Positions 3,065 to 43,494 of a stretch of DNA of 64,000 nt are shown one piece after another. A program made the translations under genes and the position numbers. The stretch covers positions 1 through 64,000 of the forward strand of contig VBEZ01000166.1 in NCBI GenBank assembly GCA_005882255.1. Direction: 5' to 3'. The notes below the pieces were generated by a model, which was not told the origin of the DNA, did no database searches, and saw nothing but the letters and a program-made list of their open reading frames with translations. Origin of the DNA: Chloroflexota bacterium. Lineage in GTDB: Bacteria; Chloroflexota; Limnocylindria; P2-11E. The stretch's first letter is position 1; the number at the start of each line of letters is the position of its first letter.

Positions 3065-5803
3065 TAGCGCGCCGGCGCCGCGGCCCGAGACAGCTCGCGA
3101 ACGCGTCGCGTGAGCACGATCAACATGGCGTGACTCGCTTCAGGGCGCTCGCGGAGGATCGTCTCGAGCTCGCGTCGTCCGATCCGTAGCGCACGCACGG
3201 TGCCCCGCGCGACGAGCGAGGCGCTGCGGGGCTCGCCGTCGAGCACCGCCATCTCACCGACGTACTCACCGCGCCTGCGTCTCGCGATCTCGGCGCCGCC
3301 GGTGACCACGCCGACCTCACCGTCGACGATGACGAGCAGCTCGTTGCCGGCATCGCCCTCGCGCGCGATGAAGGTGCCGTCTTCGTACAGCTGTTCTCCT
3401 GCGACCGCCGCGATCTGCTTGAGGTCGCCGGGCGGGAGCTCGGCGAACAGCGGCACGTGACGCAAGAACAAGATGCGCTCCATCGTCGGTAGCGTCGCAA
3501 GAGTTTCCATCGCGGCACCTCCCATTGGCGTACGTCGAACGGTCGCGAACGCGCAGACGTCGCGTATCCACTCGTCCTCGTCTCCGCGCAGTTCGGTCAG
3601 GTCCGTAGCTCTGTCGGCCGGCGTGAGATCCTCGAAGATAGCGAGCAACGGTCGCACGAGCTCGCGATCACCGACCGCGTCGAGCGCCTCGACCGCATTG
3701 GCGCGCTGGACACGATCGCGGCTCCGCAGTCCGGTGAGCGCGGCCCCGTACGCATCGTCGGGCGCAAGGGCCGCAAGCGCACCGAGCGCGATCGCCCCGT
3801 GGGTCCGTGCGGCGCGCACGAGTGCGTCACGTGCGAAAGCGGCGCGCTCCTCTTCAACGCGCAATCCGCGCGCGACGGCGTGATAGCGCACCGCAAGCGC
3901 CGCGCGTCGACGCGCGACGTCTCGCGCGCGGCCGGCGACAGCCGCCGCGGGCATCCGTCGCAGGGCGTCGAGGGCGTCGTCTACGGCGGTCCCGTCCTCG
4001 ATCGCGCTCATCGTGACCTCGAGCGCCGGCGTACCCAGCTTCACGAGTGCGTCGGCGGCGGCGATACGCACCGCGCGAACCTCGTCGCGGATCGCGGCGG
4101 CCAGGAGCGGCAATGCCGCGGGGCCGGCCGCTGGCAGCGAGCGGACGGCGGCCGCGCGTACGCGCCCGTCGGCGTCAGTTGCGAGGTCCATGATCGCGTC
4201 CGCAGCCGCGCTCCCGCGCGACTGCCCGAGGCCGCGAACGGCGACGAGCCTCAGTTCCGCATCATCCGAGCGCAACAGAGTGTCGAGCGTCGCCCAGGCC
4301 CGAGGCTCGATCTCGAGGAGAGCAGCGGCGCATGTCGCGCGCACCGCGGGATCGTCGTCTTCGAGGTGCGTACGCAATGTGGGCGCGTCGTAACGTGCGA
4401 TCGCGTTCGCTGCGACGCGACGCACGTCATCGTCGGTGTCATCGAGCGCGGCGACGAGCAGATCGCCCTGGTCGGCGAGCTGACCCAGCACCTCGACCGC
4501 GATGCGTCGTGTTCGTGGATCGGCATCCCCCGCGGCGGCGCGGGCCGCCGACACGGCGGCGCCGTCGCGCCGGAAGCCGCCGAAGGGCTCCTCCTCGCCG
4601 GTGAAGACGATCGGCTGCCCGGTCCGAAGCGTTCGCACGAGCGCGCCCGTGTATTGGCGCGACGCGCGCCACCAGACGTAGGCGGTGACCAGCGCCGCGC
4701 CGAGCCCGATGGCGGCGAGCTGGCTCGTGTCGAGCGCGCGGTCGCCGATCAGCAGCACGGCGCCGGCGATCACGATGCCGGCCTGATCGGGCACGCCGTT
4801 CACGAACGCGCGGACCTGATCGCGGCGTTCCCGCGGGATCACGTTGAAGACCGACTCGTAGGCCGGGCTCGCGATGCCTTGGAGGTATAGGAGCTGTGCG
4901 AAACGGAAGCCGACGAGAGCGGCGAACTCCGTGCGCGTGACGAGCAGCGAGGCAAAGCCGGCCGCGTACAGCAACGGGAAGACGAGGATCGCGGCCATGA
5001 TGCCGACGCGCGCGAAGAGCCGGTTCGCGACGAAGAGCGACGCGAGGAACGCCGCGCCGGTCGACGCGCCACCGAAGAGGCCGAAGAACCCCGCGAGCTG
5101 TTCGGCGCTGGGGTAAGCCCGCGTCGCGGCCTTCGCGAACGGGAACGTGAGCGAGAAGTAGAGCACGGCGAAGAGCACGGTCGCCGCCGACACCGCGCGC
5201 CACAGCGGTGAAGAACGTACGTACCGGTAGCCGGCCTGCATGTCCTGGATCAGGCTCGCTCCCGCGCGTGTCGGCGCGACGACGTGCCGACTGAGGAGCG
5301 TGCGCGCAACGAAGAAGGCCAGCACCAGCGAACCGGACCAGAAGGCGAGCAGGTTCTCCGTGCCGAGGAGCTCAGCGAGCGGGCGGGTGAGGAAGCCACC
5401 GACGACGCCGCCGAAGATCCCGCTGGCCGCGAACAATGGGAACAGCCGTTTGGCCTGACGCGTGTCGCACACGATCGCCGCGACGCCCCACGCGAGCATG
5501 CCCTGCAGCAGGGGCCAGCACGAGCGGCAGTGCAAGGTAGACGCGGACGCGGGCAACGCGTCCCAGCACCGCTGTGATCGCGAGCGAGGCGATGAAGTTC
5601 GAGACGCCGAGCGCCATGTAGAGCGCCGGCAACGCGGAGGTGCCCTGCCGCGAGAAGAACAGGGCCTCGATGGCGTTGCCGCCAACCGTCCCGCCGGCGG
5701 CAACAAGGAACGTCATCGCGAGCACCAGCGAGACGGTGCGCTCCTCGCCGGCGCGGACTTTGAAGAGATCCGCGAGCTGTTTCGTCAATCCGGCGAACAG
5801 CAT
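3064..5803 (-). CDS. Npt/MFS-like membrane transporter fused to HEAT repeats and a cNMP-binding domain (single-base frameshift)
   Basis: Starts at ATG 5803 and, after correcting one frameshift, encodes about 912 aa. The N-terminal 400 or so residues form around 12 hydrophobic helices resembling the ATP/ADP translocase-like (Npt1/Npt2, MFS-superfamily) group. Next come alanine-rich HEAT-type repeats (about 430-770) with recurring DDDVRR, DPAVRA and DAELRL motifs. The last 130 residues are a cyclic-nucleotide-binding fold: FIAREGDAGNELLVIVDGEV, then GEYVGEMAVLDGEPRSAS. The reading frame breaks at GGGG (5511-5514 on the plus strand). Removing one G joins ...YLALPLVLA to LLQGMLAWGV, and the length 2740-1 is divisible by 3. 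It follows the Ser/Thr kinase by 12 bp. The transported substrate is unknown; ligand gating by cNMP is inference. Confidence 0.72.
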
Positions 5804-15388: not shown

Positions 15389-16696
15389 ATGGAGCGGCGC
15401 GAGCTCGAGGCGCGGGGATTCCTCGTCACGCCCGGCTTCATCGACCTTCACGCGCACCTGCGCGAGCCGGGCTTCGAGGAGTCGGAGACGATCGCGTCGG
15501 GCTCGCGCGCTGCCCTCCGCGGCGGATTCACGACGATCTGCGCGATGCCGAACACCGAGCCTGCGATCGATTCGCCTGGTCTTGTAGCGGAGGTCGTCGC
15601 GCGCGCGAGAGCGGCGCGCGGGGCGCGCGTGCTGCCGATCGCCACGATCACGCGCGCCCGGGCCGGCCGCGAGCTCGCCGACCTGATCGAGCTCGCAGCG
15701 GCCGGCGCGGTCGCGTTCTCCGACGATGGCTCGCCGGTCGACGACGCGCGACTGTTCCGACATGCGCTCGAGTACGCGCGGACCGGCGACCTTCTGATCA
15801 TCGAGCACGCGCAGGACATGTCGCTGTCGCGTAACGGTGTGATGCACGAAGGCGCCGTGTCCGCGCGGCTCGGACTACCCGGCATCCCGAGCGCGGCCGA
15901 GGAGGTCGCGGTCGCTCGCGACATCGCGATCGCCGAGATGACCGGAGGTCGCCTCCATCTGACACACATCTCCACGAGAGGGGCGATCGCGTCGATCCGT
16001 GATGCCAAGAGGCGCGGCGTTCGTATCACGTGCGACGTCACTCCACATCACCTATCGATGACGGATGACTGGGTCGGCGGCTCACGGGCGTTCGCGTGGG
16101 AGCGCGGGGGCTCTCTCGCTCGGGAAGACGGGCCCGCTCCGGTTCGCTCGATCGACCGTTCGCCCTCGTCGCGGTCTCGACCCTCGCTCGAGAGCCCCCC
16201 CGCTCCCCTCGCAACGCCCTATGACTCCGCGACGAAGGTCAATCCACCTCTACGGTCTTGGAGTGACGTGCGCGCTCTCTGGGATGGTCTGGCAGACGGC
16301 ACGGTCGACGGGATCGCTACCGATCACGCACCGCATGCGTCGGTGAAGAAGGAGGTCGAATTCGATCAGGCGGCGTTCGGGATCAGCGGACTCGAGACCG
16401 CGCTTTCACTCGTGCTCGGCGGCGTGAGCGTGGGCTGGTGCGATCGCGACACGGTGATCCGTGCCCTGACGTCCGGTCCCGCTCGCGTGCTCGGGCTCCC
16501 GATCCGTGACGACGACTGGATCGCGATCGATCCCGATGCGGAGTGGACGGTGACGCCGGAGGCCCTCGTCTCGCTTGGTAAGAACACGCCGCTCCTGGGG
16601 CGACGGCTACGCGGACGGGTCGTGTGCGCGGTGGTCGGCGGCGAAGTTCGCTACGAAGGAGGTCTGCGTGGCGCGTCGCCGGTCGGCTCTCGTTGA
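15389..16696 (+). CDS. pyrC: Dihydroorotase, N-terminally short and carrying an in-frame palindromic insertion
   Basis: Cyclises carbamoyl-aspartate to dihydroorotate (step 3). Metal and catalytic residues are in place: His21/His23 in DLHAHLREPG, DDGSP near 112, His140 in IIEHAQD, His193 in LTHIST, TPHHL near 219 and Asp312 in IATDHAPH. Two oddities stand out. The usual 40-45 residues before the HxH strand (the N-terminal beta-sandwich half) are missing, because pyrB's stop directly precedes the ATG. And about 48 extra residues (about 230-277, rich in Ser/Arg/Pro) separate TPHHLSMTDD from KVNPPLRS, where relatives have about 8; they are encoded by a palindromic repeat at 16083-16222. Because the active site and frame survive, it is probably functional. 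Confidence 0.88.
   Translation: MERRELEARGFLVTPGFIDLHAHLREPGFEESETIASGSRAALRGGFTTICAMPNTEPAIDSPGLVAEVVARARAARGARVLPIATITRARAGRELADLIELAAAGAVAFSDDGSPVDDARLFRHALEYARTGDLLIIEHAQDMSLSRNGVMHEGAVSARLGLPGIPSAAEEVAVARDIAIAEMTGGRLHLTHISTRGAIASIRDAKRRGVRITCDVTPHHLSMTDDWVGGSRAFAWERGGSLAREDGPAPVRSIDRSPSSRSRPSLESPPAPLATPYDSATKVNPPLRSWSDVRALWDGLADGTVDGIATDHAPHASVKKEVEFDQAAFGISGLETALSLVLGGVSVGWCDRDTVIRALTSGPARVLGLPIRDDDWIAIDPDAEWTVTPEALVSLGKNTPLLGRRLRGRVVCAVVGGEVRYEGGLRGASPVGSR
16083..16222. repeat. Palindromic element, copy A (inside pyrC)
   Basis: About 140 bp with inverted arms. The left arm 16098-16124 and right arm 16181-16207 match at 17 of 18 outer positions (GGGAGCGCGGGGGCTCTC against its counterpart). 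Weaker pairing continues out to the GGGCGTT / AACGCCC ends. CTCTCTCGCTCG on the left and CTCGCTCGAGA on the right are shared with the copies at 31.8 and 43.3 kb. Length and frame leave pyrC open. Confidence 0.75.
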
Positions 16697-30508: not shown

Positions 30509-31749
30509 GGACCGCGGAGTTGGTCGCGATCGATGAACGGCGATTGCTGCGCCGTCTCGACGAGCTCGCGCAACGCGGAGCGCTACCCGGCGGCGGACTC
30601 TACCGCGCGCTGTACACGCCCGCGTGGGTCTCCGCGACCGAGCTCGTCTCGGGCTGGATGAAAGAGGCGGGCCTGCTCGTGCGCCGCGACGCCGTCGGCA
30701 ATGTCTGGGGACGCGTCGAAGGCTCGCGCGGCGGTCGCGCGATCGTGACCGGCTCGCACATCGACACGGTGCGCGGCGGCGGCGCCCTCGACGGAGCGCT
30801 CGGCGTCGTCGCCGCGGTCGAGGCGGTCGCCAGCCTGGTCTCGCAGCTCGGTCGGCCGCTACGCATCCTCGAGGCGGTCGCCATCTGTGAGGAGGAGGGC
30901 AGCCGCTTCAACACGAACTTCTGGGGCGCGCGCGCGATCGCCGACCGCATCGAGCCCGACGAAGCCTCGCGCGCACGCGACGCCGACGGCGTCACGCTGG
31001 CCGACGCGATGCGTGGCGTGGGTCTCGATCCCGCGAACGTCGCTCAGGCGATCCGCCGCGACATCGACACGTTCGTCGAGCTGCACGTCGAGCAGGGCCC
31101 GATCCTCGAGGAGGAGGGCCCGCGTCTCGGCGTCGTACGGACGATCGTGGGCACCGCGCATCTCGAGGTGGTCGTCCGCGGGCAGCCGGATCACGCCGGC
31201 GCTACCGCCATGGATCGCCGGCGCGATGCGCTTCTCGGCGCGTCAGCCATGATGCTCGCGATCGCCGACGTGGCGCGCGAGATGGGCCCGCCCGCGGTCG
31301 CGACCGTCGGAACGATCGCCGTCGAGCCCGCGCAGGTGAACGTCGTGCCGGGTCTGGCGCGCTTCACCGTTGACGCGCGCCATAGCGACAACGCGCAGCG
31401 GACGCTGCTCGTCGCGGACATCACGAGGGTGTGCAAGGTCGCTGGTCGGGAGCGCGACCTCTCGGTCGACGTGCGCACGCTCCGCGACCGACCGGCGGTC
31501 CAGCTGAACGAGCGCGCCGCCGACGTCGCCCGGCGGGCGTGCCTCGCGTGCGGCGTCGCGCCGCGTGACATGACGAGCGGCGCCGGTCATGACGCGCAGG
31601 TGCTCAGCGCCGCCGCGCACGCCGCGATGATCTTCGTCCCGAGCATCGGTGGTCGTTCGCACTGCCCGGAGGAGGCGACTGCGGCCGAGGACGTCATCCT
31701 CGGAACGCGAGCGCTCGCGGCCGCGCTGCGCGATCTGGCGTACTCGTAA
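30505..31749 (+). CDS. allC: Allantoate amidohydrolase (M20 hydantoinase/carbamoylase family)
   Basis: Hydrolyses allantoate to ureidoglycine, CO2 and ammonia. The 414-aa enzyme shows the M20 dinuclear metal site: GSHIDTVRGGGALDGALGV, EEEGSRF, ELHVEQGPILE, the dimerisation-domain HAGATAMDRRRDAL, and the C-terminal GAGHDAQVLS plus GRSHCPEE. The same family includes N-carbamoyl-amino-acid hydrolases; the position directly after allantoinase favours allantoate as substrate. GTG start inside the allB stop. The downstream intergenic space is filled by a palindromic element. Confidence 0.9.
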   Translation: MRTAELVAIDERRLLRRLDELAQRGALPGGGLYRALYTPAWVSATELVSGWMKEAGLLVRRDAVGNVWGRVEGSRGGRAIVTGSHIDTVRGGGALDGALGVVAAVEAVASLVSQLGRPLRILEAVAICEEEGSRFNTNFWGARAIADRIEPDEASRARDADGVTLADAMRGVGLDPANVAQAIRRDIDTFVELHVEQGPILEEEGPRLGVVRTIVGTAHLEVVVRGQPDHAGATAMDRRRDALLGASAMMLAIADVAREMGPPAVATVGTIAVEPAQVNVVPGLARFTVDARHSDNAQRTLLVADITRVCKVAGRERDLSVDVRTLRDRPAVQLNERAADVARRACLACGVAPRDMTSGAGHDAQVLSAAAHAAMIFVPSIGGRSHCPEEATAAEDVILGTRALAAALRDLAYS

Positions 31750-31750
31750 T

Positions 31751-31911
31751 GTCGCGGCCCCGGGCGGCCAACTCTCTCGCTCGCTGCTGGCTACTGCGCC
31801 GTCGCGAAGCGAAACGGCAAGCAGCCGGCGAAGGCGAACGCCGAGCCGTAGGCCGGCCCGCCGGCTGGGCGCAGACGCTCGCTCGAGAAGTTGCCGCCCC
31901 CGGGACGCGAC
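31751..31911. repeat. Palindromic element, copy B
   Basis: Fills the whole gap between allC and the next amidohydrolase. The outer arms GTCGCG..CCCCGGGCGGCCAACTC (from 31751) and GAAGTTGCCGCCCCCGGGACGCGAC (to 31911) are imperfect inverted copies. Inside, 20 bases near 31775-31794 and 27 bases at 31860-31886 are identical to copy C at 43.3 kb. Confidence 0.8.
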
Positions 31912-31915
31912 ACTA

Positions 31916-33238
31916 ATGGCGATCCTGCTGCGCGGCGGAACGCTCCTCCCGATGGCCGACGGCGGTCGCGCGATCGCCGGGGACGTGCTCGTGAGCGGCG
32001 CGCGTATCGCGCAGATCGGCACGGTCGAGCAGACGCCACCGGACACGGAGATCGTCGACTGCTCGGGCTGCTATCTCCTGCCCGGGCTGGTGCAGACGCA
32101 CGTGCACCTGGTGCAGACGATCTTCCGCGGCCTCGCGGAAGACCTCGGACTCCTCGATTGGCTGCGCCGCTTCATCTGGCCGCTCGAGGCCGCGCACGAC
32201 GAGGCGTCGGTGCGCGCGTGCGTGCGTCTCGGCCTCGGCGAGCTCATCACCACCGGGACGACGACGATCCTCGACATGGGCACAACGCGCTGGGGCGACG
32301 TCGTCGCGGAGGAGCTGGTGCGGTCGGGCATCCGCGCGCGGTTCGGTCAGGCGATGATGGACACTGGAGAAAACGTTCCGGCCGACCTGGTCGAGAGCAC
32401 GCGCGACTCGCTCGACGCGAGCGCGGGTCTGGTGAAGCGCTGGAGCAAAGCCGGCGCCGGCCGCATCGCCTACGCGTACGCGCCACGCTTCGCGCTCTCG
32501 TGCACGCGCGAGCTACTCGAGGCGGTCGGCATGCTCGCCAAGCTGAGCGAGACGCTCGTGCACACGCACTCGAACGAGAGCGCAGAGGAGCGCTCCGCGG
32601 TGCAGGGCGTGACGGGGATGTCGCCGATCGGCTACCTCGCGCAGGTCGGCATCGCGACGCCGCGGACCGTGATCGCGCACGGCGTTCACGTCGATGACGC
32701 GGAGCTGCAGATCCTCCGCGAGAGCGGAAGCGCGGTGACCCATTGCCCGTCATCGAACCTCAAGCTCGGCTCGGGCGTCGCTGACGTCGTCCGCCTGCGG
32801 CAGGCACGCGTGATCGTCGGCATCGGCGCCGATGGCGCGGCCTGCAACAACGAGCTCGATGGGTTCGAGGAAGTTCGCCTCGCCACCCTCCTCGCCCGCA
32901 CGCTGCGCGGGCAGGGCGCGCTCACCGCCGCCGACGCGCTCGGTATGGCGACGCGCGAGGGAGCGCGGGCGCTGCACCTCGAGGCGGAGACCGGCACGCT
33001 GGAGGTCGGCCGGCGCGCCGACATCGTCGTGATCGACAGCGAGCGGCTCGCGGGGCCCGGCGGTGATCCCGTTGCGCGGATCGTGTTCGGCGGCGGTTCG
33101 CGCGGAGTACGCGACGTCCTCGTCGACGGCACGCTGCTCGTCCGCGGTGGTGTGCCACTCCTCTTCGATCCGGGTGAGGTCCGCGCGAAGGCCGCCGAGG
33201 TCTTGCCCGCCCTGCTCGGGCGCGCGCAGGTCGCCTAG
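31916..33238 (+). CDS. Guanine-deaminase-like amidohydrolase (TRZ/ATZ family)
   Basis: A 440-residue metal-dependent deaminase. Metal and catalytic motifs: QTHVHLVQTIFRG (HxH), YAPRFALSCT, HTHSNES, IAHGVHVD, the HCPSSNLKLGSG loop and GIGADGAACNNELD with the catalytic Asp. The family includes guanine deaminase, 8-oxoguanine deaminase and 5'-deoxyadenosine/S-adenosylhomocysteine deaminases. Placed between allantoate hydrolase and xanthine dehydrogenase, guanine (to xanthine) is the likely substrate, but this is inference. ATG 31916 begins right after the palindromic element and gives the normal MAILLRGGTLLPM N-terminus. Confidence 0.8.
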   Translation: MAILLRGGTLLPMADGGRAIAGDVLVSGARIAQIGTVEQTPPDTEIVDCSGCYLLPGLVQTHVHLVQTIFRGLAEDLGLLDWLRRFIWPLEAAHDEASVRACVRLGLGELITTGTTTILDMGTTRWGDVVAEELVRSGIRARFGQAMMDTGENVPADLVESTRDSLDASAGLVKRWSKAGAGRIAYAYAPRFALSCTRELLEAVGMLAKLSETLVHTHSNESAEERSAVQGVTGMSPIGYLAQVGIATPRTVIAHGVHVDDAELQILRESGSAVTHCPSSNLKLGSGVADVVRLRQARVIVGIGADGAACNNELDGFEEVRLATLLARTLRGQGALTAADALGMATREGARALHLEAETGTLEVGRRADIVVIDSERLAGPGGDPVARIVFGGGSRGVRDVLVDGTLLVRGGVPLLFDPGEVRAKAAEVLPALLGRAQVA

Positions 33239-34812: not shown

Positions 34813-35186
34813 TTGCGGCCCACTCTGATGTGACCGCGGATCAGCTCCGGAAACGTCTTCACATCGATGGGCTTGGTGATGAAGCCGTCGAACCCCGCCC
34901 CCTCGAAGCGCTCGCGGTCCTCTCTCATCACCGACGCCGTCATCGCGACGACCGGTATCGCCGCGGTCACCGGGTCGGCGCGCAGCCGCCGTAGCGCGCT
35001 GACGCCGTCCATCCCGGGCAGCTGGATGTCCATCAGGATCAGGTGCGGCTGGTGCGCGATCGCCAGCGGTATCCCGTCCTCGGCGCTCGTCGCCTCGATG
35101 GTGTCGAAGCCGTGATAACGGAGGAGGTCTCGGGCGAGCTTCAGGTTCTTGTCGTTGTCCTCGACGATGAGCACCAGGTCTTTCAT
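34809..35186 (-). CDS. Single-domain response regulator (DivK-like)
   Basis: 125-residue receiver. [37 protein letters not shown] (phospho-acceptor Asp), VVAMTA and [11 protein letters not shown] are canonical, and the sequence is of the polar-differentiation DivK/PleD receiver type. It lies between the multi-GAF kinase and the receiver-cyclase, with 4-base overlaps on both sides. It is probably phosphorylated by that kinase and relays to, or competes with, the cyclase receiver. Confidence 0.9.
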
Positions 35187-38100
35187 GCGTGCACCGCGGC
35201 CGCGCGCCGGACGGGCAGGGTGAATCCAAAGGTGCTGCCTCCGCCTGGGGTGCTCTGGAGCCAGATGCGGCCGCCGTGAAGCTCGACGAAGCGCTTCGTC
35301 AGTGTCAACCCGAGGCCGGTGCCCTCGCGGGATCGCTCGCGCCCGACCTGGCGGAACTCTTCGAAGATGCGCTCCTGGTCCTCGCCGGCGATGCCGATGC
35401 CGGTATCGCTCACCTCGACGCGAACGTCGCCGTTTTCGGTGCGCACGCTAACGCCGACGCGACCGCCGTCCGGCGTGAACTTCACCGCGTTGCTCAGCAG
35501 GTTGTAGAGGATCTGCTTCACCTTGCGCTCATCCGCCTCGATCGTGCCGACGTCGGACGCCACGGTCGTGCTGAGCTGGATCCCGTGCCGGGCCGCCCGG
35601 TCCCGGACGATCGTGAGCCCGCTCTCGAGCGCGTCGCGAAGCGCGAACGTCGAGACCTCGAGGTCCATGCGCCCGGCCTCGATCTTCGAGAGGTCGAGGA
35701 TGTCATTGATCAGAGACAACAGGTGCTGGCCCGAGCCGAGGACGTCGGCGAGGTACTCGCGCTGCTTCTCGTTGACCTCGCCGAAGATGCCCTGCAGCAG
35801 CACCTCGGAGAAGCCGATGATCGCATTCAGCGGCGTCCGCAGCTCGTGCGACATGTTGGCGAGGAACTCGCTCTTGTGGCGGTTCGCCACCTCGAGCTGC
35901 CGGCTCTTGTCTTGGATCTCGTTGAACAGCCGGACGTTCTGGATCGCGATCGCGGCCTGGTCGGCGAACGTCTCCACGACTTTCACCTCGCGGTCCGAGA
36001 AGCGGCGAACGGTGCGGCGCGCGACGAGGATCACGCCGATCGCCTCGCCCTCCACGAGCAGCGGCACAGCCAGCACGGTTCGTGACCCGGTGGCCTTCGG
36101 TACCCGCGACTCCTCGAACAGCTCTTTGTCGAGCGTGATGTCCTCGAGGTGGATCGTGCGGCGATCGGCGTACGCGCGTCCAGCGATGCTCGTGCCCATG
36201 ACCGTGAACCGGTCGACACTACGGATCCCAGCGAGGCTCGCGAACACGCTCCGATCGCCGTCGCTCGCGTAACGGGCTCCACCCACGATCTGGTCGCCGT
36301 CGCGCCTGATCATCCAGGCCAGGTCCGCGTCGGCCAGCCGCGCGGCGTTTTCGACCACCGTATCGAGGATCGGGTCCAGCTCGAATGCGGAGCGGCTGAT
36401 CGTCTTGAGCACCTCGCCGACCGCGGTCTGCTGCCCTAAGGCCTCCTTCGTCTCGTTGAACAGGCGCACGTTCTCGATCGCGATCGCGGCCTGGTCGGCG
36501 AAGGTTTGGATCAGCTCGATCTCGCGGTCGCTGTAAGGTCGGACCGCGTAGCGGGCGAGGACCATGCCGCCAATGCTGTGACCTTCGCGAAGCATCGGAA
36601 CTCCGACGACCGTCCGCGACTGGGTGAGCCGAGCCACGAGCGATCCCTTGAGCCGCGGGTCCTCCTTCACGTCCGGGACGTGCATGGTCCGGCCCTCGCC
36701 GAGCGTGACGCCCATCACGCCGCCGCCGATCCCTACCGGGACCCACCCACCACCCAGATGACCCCCGCGTCTCTGCTTGGCGAGCTCCTCGCGAACGTGC
36801 TGAGGGAATGCCGTGCTGTACGCGACCGTCATGAACTGGTCGCCCTCGGCGCGCGACAACCAGCCGATGTCCGCGCCAACGAGTCGCACGGCGTTGTTGA
36901 GCACGATGTCGAGGACCGGTTGGAGGTCGAACACCGAGCGGCTGATCGTCTTCAGCACTTCGGCCACCGCGGTCTGCCGCTCGAGCGCTTCCCTCGTCTC
37001 ATTGAAGAGACGCACGTTCTCGATCGCGATGGCGGCCTGATCCGCGAACGTGCGCAGGAGCTCTATCTGCCCGTCGGTGAACGGCTTCACCGTCGTGCGC
37101 CGGAGTGCGATCGCTCCGAGCGCGACGCCTTCTCGGAACATCGGTGCCGCCAGGACCGTCCGCTGTCCCACCTCACGCGCGCGACGAACCCCGGTCGGGT
37201 ACTCCTCTTCGGTCTCGGCCAGCATGTCCTCGACATGCACCATGCGGCGCTCGACGATCGCTCGCCCGCGTACGGAACCTCGATCCACCGGCCAGGGCGA
37301 CAATGCGCCGCTCATCGGTCCGTAGTGGGCGACCTGCTCGAGGAGGCCATCCGCGCGCACCAACGCGACGCCGCAGTCCTCAGCGGCGCAGAAGCGCGCC
37401 GCGTTCCGAGCGATCGCGTCGAGCACTGGCTGACGATCGGCCGGGGAGCTTGCCATCGTGCGCAGCACGTCACCGAGCGCGGTCTGCCTCTCGAGCGCCT
37501 CCTTCGTCTCGTTGAATAGCCTGGTGTTGTCGATCGCGATGACCGCCTGATCGGCGAAGGTGCTCATGAGGTCGATCTGCTTCTTTGTGAACGCGATGGG
37601 TGCGCTCCGCCACAGGCCGATCAGCCCGATCAGCTCGCCCTTGCTGAACATCGGAACGTTCAGCATCGCGCGGTATCCGACCAGCCGCTGCCCCGCGCTA
37701 TAGGTGTACTCGTGGTCCGCGAGCACGTCGGGGATCTGGACCGCGCGACGCTCGGCGACGACCCGACCACTGAGCGAGCCGCGGTGAGGCGCCACCGGGA
37801 CCGGGTCGGAATTCGTGTACTCCACGAACGCCGCGGGGACTTTGTATCCCGCCCGGAGCTTGAAGAAACCCCCCTCGACGACATAGATGAACGCCATGTC
37901 CGCCTCACAGAGCCGCGCACCACTCTCCACGATGGCGTCCAAAGTCGGCTGCTGGTCCGCGGGGGAGCGGCTGATCACGTTCAAGATGGCACTCGTTGCG
38001 GTCTGTCGCTCCAGCGCCTCCTTGGTCTCGTTGAAGAGGCGCACGTTCTCCATCGCGATCGCGGCTTGGTCGGCAAACGTCTCGATCATCTGGAGCTCGC

Positions 38101-39604
38101 GTTCGTTGAATGGCTGCGGCAGGTTGTGCATCACGCCGAGGACACCGATCGCCTTGCCGTCACGCATGAGAGGCGTCGCCAGACGCGTGCGTGGGCCATC
38201 CTGCGGGAGGTCGGGATGGTCTCGAGCATCAGCGATGTACTGCCGCTTTCCGGTCAACAGCGCGCGACCGATGACCGTCTCGTCCGTTACCGGGATCCGG
38301 GTGCCTCGCACCATAGAAGCCGGGAGCACGGGCCCGAACTGGGCCAGCACGACGGCCTCATCGCCTTCACGCACGGAAATCGACGCTGAATCAGCACCGC
38401 CGAGCGCGGCGGCGCGCTCGACGATGGTCTGAAGGACGGCGTCCAGGTCGAAGGCGGAGCGGCTGATGGTCCGGAGCACGTCGCTGAGAGCGGTCTGCTG
38501 GTCGAGCGATTCTTTCGTCTCGTTGAAGAGGCGGGCATTCTCCATCGCGATCGTCGCCTGGTCCGCGAACGTCTGGACCAGCCGGATGTCCGCGTCCGAG
38601 AAGGGCCGTCGCTCATTTCGCGCAACGCCGATCGCTCCGATCACCTCGTCGTCGCGAACGATCGGTACCCCGAGCACGGTGTGGACCCCGTGCTCGCGGT
38701 TCGATGGCCAGTCGTAGTTCGGATCCTCGAACAGATCGGGGATATGCACCACGCTCCGGCGCAGCGCGACCCGGCCGATCAAGGTGCGGTCCGTGATCGT
38801 CGTGGGGTGGGAGCGCTCGTACTCGGTCAGCGCCGGGGTGCCGCCGTGCGAGGCGATCAGCTGGAACACGTCGCCCTCGCGTCGGAACAGATAGCCCCAG
38901 TCGCCGCGACAGAGCTTTGTCGCGTTCTCGACGACGACGTCGAAGACCGCCTGAAGATCGAACGCGGATCGACTGATCGTCTTCAGGACGTCGGCGGTCG
39001 CGGTCTGCTGCTCGAGAGCTTCTTTCGTCTCGTTGAAGAGGCGCACGTTCTCGATCGCGATGGCGGCCTGGCGCGAGAACGTCTCGAGGATCTCGATCTC
39101 ACGCGCGCTGAACAGCGCGACGTTGAACCGGCGCACGATGATGATCCCTTCGACCTCCGCGTCGCGCATGATCGGGACGCCGAGGAGGGTCTGCGGGACG
39201 TTCGTGGGCGCGCTGGCGGGGTCGTAGTCCGGATCGGCGCTCACGTCTTCGATCTGGACCGTCTTGCGCGAAAGCAGCACGCGACCGAAGAGGCTCCCCT
39301 TGCCGGGCTGGAAGGTGCGGCCGGCGTAATAACGCTCGTAGTCGTCGAGACCGATCTCGAACCGACCGGCGCTCCCCAAGATCTCGTAACCGGTGGCCGC
39401 ATCGCGGCGTATCACGGACGCGTTGTCGGCCCGGCAGAGCCGCACCGCGTTCTCCGCGATCGTGCCGAGCACCTTTCGCAGATCGAAGCCGGAGGCGCTC
39501 ATCGCCTCGAGCACCTCGCGGGTCGCGACCTGCTGCTCGCGCGCGCTCGCCAGCGCCGCCGCGGTGTCGGTGTCGTTCGCGCCGCGTGCCTTGGCCGCCT
39601 TCAA
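35183..39604 (-). CDS. Cytosolic histidine kinase with seven tandem GAF domains
   Basis: A 1473-residue sensor without membrane helices. Seven GAF domains of about 170 residues follow one another, each introduced by a near-identical linker of the form NETKEAL(E/G)(Q/R)QTA...VLKTISRS (DNA repeat about every 515 bases). Then come HisKA ([19 protein letters not shown], phospho-His) and HATPase_c ([34 protein letters not shown]). GAF domains may bind small ligands or tetrapyrroles; no conserved Cys for a bilin is obvious. TTG start with GGAGG 5 bases upstream and TAGCAT at 39634-39629 as -10. It heads an operon with two receiver genes and is divergent from xdh. Confidence 0.93.
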
Positions 39605-43272: not shown

Positions 43273-43298
43273 GACCGAGCCCGCGGGCAAACCTCTCT

Positions 43299-43442
43299 TC
43301 GCGCGCGAGCTCGACGTCGCCCCACACCTCTCGCTCGCTGCTGGCTACGCCGGCCCGCCGTTCAGCCGGCGCGCGGCGCTCGGGCCGGCTGGGCGCAGAC
43401 GCTCGCTCGAGGTGTGCCGCGCCGTTCTCGCTCGCGCGCGAC
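43299..43442. repeat. Palindromic element, copy C
   Basis: About 144 bp between xdh and add. The core stem CACACCTC (43324-43331 region) pairs perfectly with GAGGTGTG (43410-43417 region). Flanking TCGCGCGCGAGC and its complement extend the arms. Two internal blocks of 20 and 27 bases are identical to copy B, while the outer stem sequence differs. Confidence 0.8.
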
Positions 43443-43494
43443 GCGCGACGCGCCCGCTGGCTCACAGATGCACTCGCGCGCATCATTCACGGCG

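Follow-up and report, generated by a model that had tools for sequence, protein, structure and literature searches.

How can a short repeat keep its inner motifs, and keep its outer stems paired, when the sequence of those stems changes from copy to copy? This question is raised by a stretch of 64,000 nt from an uncultured Chloroflexota genome (contig VBEZ01000166.1; hereafter, the window). An original prediction, made from the letters, described copies B and C with identical internal blocks, together with a copy A, each with its own self-complementary outer stem. For transposons of such size, recognition normally depends on the end sequences. In the present repeats, by contrast, the ends differ in almost every copy, and only the pairing and the folded core are kept.

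Copy B occupies the gap from the stop codon of an allantoate amidohydrolase-like gene to the start codon of the amidohydrolase gene that follows, and copy C lies between xanthine dehydrogenase-like and adenosine deaminase-like genes. The features in the window are as follows.

31750-31912, minus strand: copy B, whole hairpin element, long form of type I; its arms TGTCGCGGCCCCGGGCGGCCAACTCTC and GAGAAGTTGCCGCCCCCGGGACGCGACA pair
31750-31776, minus strand: copy B outer stem, 3' arm on the folding (minus) strand
31777-31794, minus strand: copy B conserved block, GTAGCCAGCAGCGAGCGA on the minus strand, with tandem G-A modules; identical in most copies
31795-31851, minus strand: copy B extra domain of the long form, with CTACGGCTCGGCGTTCGCC on the minus strand (alignment A4)
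31860-31887, minus strand: copy B second conserved block, identical to 43384-43411
31885-31912, minus strand: copy B outer stem, 5' arm on the minus strand
31747-31751, plus strand: TAATG at the left edge of copy B, containing the stop TAA of the upstream gene
31914-31918, plus strand: TAATG at the right edge of copy B, containing the start ATG of the downstream gene
43277-43463, minus strand: copy C, short form of type I, with arms of 54/55 nt
43331-43408, minus strand: copy C core of 78 nt, with two conserved blocks flanking an inner stem that covaries and a variable loop
16086-16219, minus strand: copy A, sister element with a type III core, in frame in a dihydroorotase gene (ORF 15389-16696, plus strand)

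The blocks identical between B and C are CTCTCGCTCGCTGCTGGCTAC (21 bases) and GCCGGCTGGGCGCAGACGCTCGCTCGAG (28 bases), where 20 and 27 bases had originally been noticed. The predicted arms do pair, but they are longer than was stated: each measures about 27 nt in B, which spans 31750-31912, and about 54 nt in C, which spans 43277-43463. Our covariance model R1 matched both copies on the minus strand, B at 31770-31891 (E = 3.5e-9) and C at 43309-43430 (E = 1.7e-25). The window also holds a very long sensor kinase gene (35183-39604) with seven tandem GAF-like repeats (units of about 500 bases, 65-79% identical).

We searched for further copies. Copy B used as a query gave many partial matches in its own genome, and a two-block pattern search found 11 places in the 2.67 Mb, where reversed-pattern controls gave 0-1 for the longer block. 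R1 found 11 matches in this genome (G000) and 9, 12 and 13 in its congeners G002, G003 and G004; the remaining congener, G001 (97% complete), had zero copies against 9-13 in the four others of the genus. The sister genus had eight matches in all (five in G013, two in G020, one in G026), and R1 gave none in the rest of the 301-genome phylum sample, about 290 other genomes. The genomes are incomplete MAGs (80-97% complete), and the hosts are uncultured soil Chloroflexi. An exact-match scan of GTDB hit mainly the Chloroflexi MAGs CF_4, CF_64 and CF_147; the single matches in Burkholderiales, Streptomyces, Phytohabitans, Anaeromyxobacter and an Actinomycetota MAG probably arose by chance, as 22-mers in genomes rich in GC. 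Viral contigs held no exact match to the element and copy A had no phage match, and a phage origin was dropped. The repeats thus form a dispersed family and are not confined to the copies first seen.

Pairing of the outer arms was scored in 26 copies. Own arms scored 13-27, far above the shuffle means of 1.1-3.5. The mean was 17.3 for own arms and 7.1 for arms taken from different copies; since left arms resemble each other at 7.4 over 30 nt, cross-copy pairing is no better than the resemblance of unrelated left arms. The stems therefore differ between copies while each pairs with its own partner, as had been proposed. Alignment A3 comprises 30 copies on the minus strand. Of its 24 pairs, 12 show changes on both sides (60 cells, where shuffles gave 16.2), and 92.7% of cells pair; five measures were computed, and none was reached by any of 500 shuffles. 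The inner stem covaries too (GCCGGCCC/GGGCCGGC, GCGGGCCC/GGGCCCGC, GCGCGCCC/GGGCGCGC, GCCGACCC/GGGTCGGC). Between orthologous copies, both arms were changed at the same pair 49 times against 19 expected, and the double changes were still paired 24 times against about 5 expected, numbers that the alignment may inflate in the most diverged pairs.

Some non-orthologous copies have a common arm sequence (17 nt in L116/L060 and 12 nt in L120/L074); thus, the arms are part of the element and diverge together. The outermost 14-15 bases at site B are common to copies with different cores, so cores and arms have been reshuffled. Half-copies or tandem arm repeats were also seen beside full copies (the left flank of L041; 375-523 upstream of L121; about 4040-4131 at L037), with GGCGTCGGCAGGGCGCCGGCACTC present three times beside L041. 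They look as if they came from slippage or nested insertion on one side.

The mismatches in the arms are polar with respect to the strand. Across 38 copies, all but one at different sites, the minus strand carried 49 G-U against 12 A-C mismatches and 142 purine-purine against 22 pyrimidine-pyrimidine mismatches, although the two arms are similar in base composition. Within 12 pairs of the core, the counts were 13 G-U and 0 A-C. Since it is on the minus strand that the mismatches take the form of G·U and purine-purine, this is the strand that folds, and the letters first read are its complement. On this strand, the core places CUC-GA-GC-GA-GC-GU-CUG opposite CAG-CA-GC-GA-GC-GA-GAG, which makes two tandem G-A modules. 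Their spacer is 2 bp in type I and 1 bp in type II, changed on both strands at once, and the internal loop is invariant across genera. The long-form domain, kept in eight copies of four genomes (alignment A4), has a UUCG-type hairpin and covaries as GGCGU...ACGCC or GCCGU...ACGGC. The element has a GC content of 0.70-0.78 and a length of about 130-190 nt with a variable outer arm.

One frame of the core can be read as LAAGY...AGWAQT. A protein-coding core was rejected: cores measure 77, 78 and 79 nt, L017 has a stop in frame, and indels of 1 nt in the long domain are incompatible with a conserved frame. Conserved hairpins with compensating stems on one strand are well supported; covarying stems surround a conserved core and one strand is preferred, as in structured RNAs in general. 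The covariation, the orthologous copies and the strand polarity support the earlier suggestion of covarying arms under selection for structure. That the minus strand folds, that the inner stem covaries and that the core of copy A differs go beyond it.

Copy A shares with B and C only the tandem-GA module next to the stem. Its membership in the family, as first proposed, holds for this module and not for the core, and we treat it as a sister type. When the dihydroorotase ORF was aligned to the dihydroorotase 3gri, the alignment broke at residue 234 and resumed at 282; copy A adds about 47 residues in frame relative to solved dihydroorotases. Rickettsia palindromic elements lie in frame in metabolic genes (PMC10969869). 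Copy A, palindromic and in frame in a metabolic gene, resembles them when compared by placement, not by sequence, whereas nearly all other copies of the present family are intergenic. The type III core occurs also in L109, and in an altered form in L102 and L108. These relatives (L109, G000:C231; L108, G002:C56; L102, G002:C5) are at sites that hold type I in other genomes, and L109 carries its 5' half as a tandem repeat.

Copies other than A often fill the whole gap between genes, in either orientation relative to them, and their neighbours are co-directional or convergent, by a simple gene calling that left a few overlapping frames ambiguous. Filled and empty alleles could be compared at several sites. 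The filled allele of L042 reads GCAG-CTAG-[element]-CTAG-CGCAG, and in G002 and G003 CACCTAGCGG or CAGCTAACGC stands there once. The empty alleles thus have the motif a single time, as AGCTAGC, ACCTAGC or AGCTAAC; two convergent genes end within this CTAG. At the cytochrome b (cyt b) junction, the empty G001 reads CTATGACC, with stop and start overlapping as ATGA, and the filled alleles (G002, G003, G013, G020 and G026) have RTGA on both sides. As this junction holds the element in both genera, G001 may have lost it precisely, and its empty state need not be ancestral. Site C is empty in G003, where the site is about 150 bases shorter and has about 44 nt in the element's place. The two TAATG flanking copy B are a possible target duplication pair, and TAGTG stands at the left-edge position in G002 and G003.

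Judged from these alleles, the element seems to insert at overlapping gene ends with apparent 4-bp duplications (CTAG, ATGA), the kind of target-site duplication that the original prediction had proposed to look for. The duplications are short and clear at two sites, L042 and the cyt b junction, the other sites being too diverged. The elements are, or were, likely mobile.

We then looked for a mobilising enzyme in eight genomes. The Y1 transposase (PF01797) was found in 0 of 8, with 5 of 14 controls positive, and the reverse transcriptase (PF00078), expected of a group II intron or retron, also in 0 of 8. DDE_Tnp_1 gave one weak match, and IS110 one match each in G001, G003 and G004, a distribution that does not follow element copy number. 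No autonomous partner among the Y1, DDE_Tnp_1 and IS110 families in these genomes tracks the element. The MAGs are incomplete and one gene may be missing in any single genome, but a gene that none of the eight contains is a telling result. As mobilisers, RAYT, reverse transcriptase, DDE_Tnp_1 and IS110 were rejected, being absent, weak or not following the element.

We consider it about an even bet that the family is a non-autonomous, MITE-like mobile element that has a folded single strand as its unit, and that its arms drift yet stay paired. This strand, the minus strand at B and C, is made up of a long outer stem (P1), a conserved internal loop that contains the two tandem G-A modules, an inner stem that covaries and a tip that varies; some copies have one more hairpin domain. 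The folded core, as RNA or single-stranded DNA, would be recognised by a trans-acting protein. Insertion would take place mostly where it does little harm, namely where gene ends overlap, and would duplicate about 4 bp. The sequence of P1 would be free, and pairing alone would count. The arms may then drift in concert via compensatory changes, helped by replication template switching between arms, which probably corrects them; such switching would homogenise the arms and could invert the spacer, so that the core would come to lie in opposite orientations, as it does at one orthologous gap.

However, a function in the cell could equally be read from stems that covary at fixed sites. The repeats may be a structured non-coding RNA family transcribed from the minus strand, serving as a processing, stability or termination signal or as a trans-acting RNA and copied widely, with mobility incidental and old; we regard this as rather unlikely, though worth serious thought. 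It would fit the strand-polar covariation that persists at orthologous, fixed copies, the UUCG-type hairpin, the placement mostly between co-directional or convergent genes and the cyt b gap, which holds the element in both genera. Yet in that same gap the core direction in G003 and G013 is opposite to that of the other carriers. Orientation to the neighbours is not fixed either (seven co-directional sites are antisense and four sense), no gene context is common, and the congener G001 does without the element. Rfam 15 covariance models gave no match at the gathering threshold, and none at E ≤ 1 on the long forms.

It is also conceivable, although improbable, that the stems are complementary mainly by mutation bias, through template-switch correction of quasipalindromes and without selection on the folded strand, the core being conserved only through the youth of the copies. 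Published work shows that template switching makes arms homogeneous and inverts spacers (PMC8604942), and that it preserves RNA stems (PMC8794818). Orthologous arms diverge fast yet remain paired, and the opposite core orientations at one orthologous gap could arise in this way because template switching can invert a spacer. Mutation bias alone does not predict the core-linked polarity (13 G-U against 0 A-C within 12 pairs), the coordinated spacing change in the tandem-GA modules or the internal-loop invariance across genera. Template switching thus explains the concerted drift and the flips but not the strand polarity, and from this remainder we infer selection on the folded strand.

The outer stems could be pre-existing target palindromes, with a core that enters the loop of one intergenic hairpin or another. 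The target at L042 forms a palindrome of its own, and the outermost bases at site B, common to different cores, would suit this reading. However, the empty L042 alleles lack the element's 24-27-nt arms, and some non-orthologous copies have arms in common, so that the reading is largely contradicted and very unlikely. The same two observations speak against the earlier suggestion that the arms are inverted copies of the target.

REP/REPIN sequences, which are palindromic, extragenic and mostly downstream of uni- or convergently transcribed genes (PMC3733652), resemble the present element in being palindromic, intergenic and downstream of genes, but a REP/REPIN family moved by a TnpA-REP (RAYT) enzyme is scarcely credible, since PF01797 is absent in eight genomes while five of the 14 control genomes are positive, and the unit is 130-190 nt without a conserved outer stem, instead of 20-40 nt with a GTAG or CGTC tag. 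The original prediction of an undescribed MITE/REP-like family therefore stands as to an undescribed mobile palindromic family, and not as to a TnpA-REP/RAYT mechanism.

Other known systems show partial likeness. MIRUs of mycobacteria insert at overlapping stop/start (ATGA) junctions and leave both genes intact, as the present element does; but, unlike the hairpins with covarying stems described here, they are open-frame repeats in tandem. A folded single strand recognised by structure, as in IS200/IS605-type hairpins, would explain the free stem sequence. However, no TnpA was found here and the apparent duplications are 4 bp, whereas IS200/IS605 elements are not known to make target duplications. 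The MITE-type small repeats BOX, RUP, SPRITE, ERIC and Correia are likewise short, intergenic, strongly folded and non-autonomous, and some have long and short forms (PMC3049150). They are AT-rich, unlike the GC-rich present element, and their inverted repeats are a common sequence, whereas here these differ per copy and pairing alone is kept (17.3 own, 7.1 cross and 7.4 left-left). Because the tests for shared terminal repeats and for RAYT failed, we did not file the element as a MITE or REP member; it lives like a MITE or REP yet fails both sets of defining tests.

More speculatively, and on balance we doubt it, the family may represent a new class of mobile element, in which folded RNA or single-stranded DNA is the unit of selection, the tandem-GA core is recognised, the stem is free in sequence, the enzyme is neither IS200/RAYT nor a reverse transcriptase, and cores are exchangeable between resident stems.

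The family offers a natural collection of more than 40 copies for asking how a mobile hairpin is recognised. The contrast between G001, without copies, and its four carrier congeners is a natural comparison for finding the mobiliser. Moreover, the orthologous and empty sites make a long-standing question directly testable, namely whether such stems are kept by selection on the fold or by template switching.
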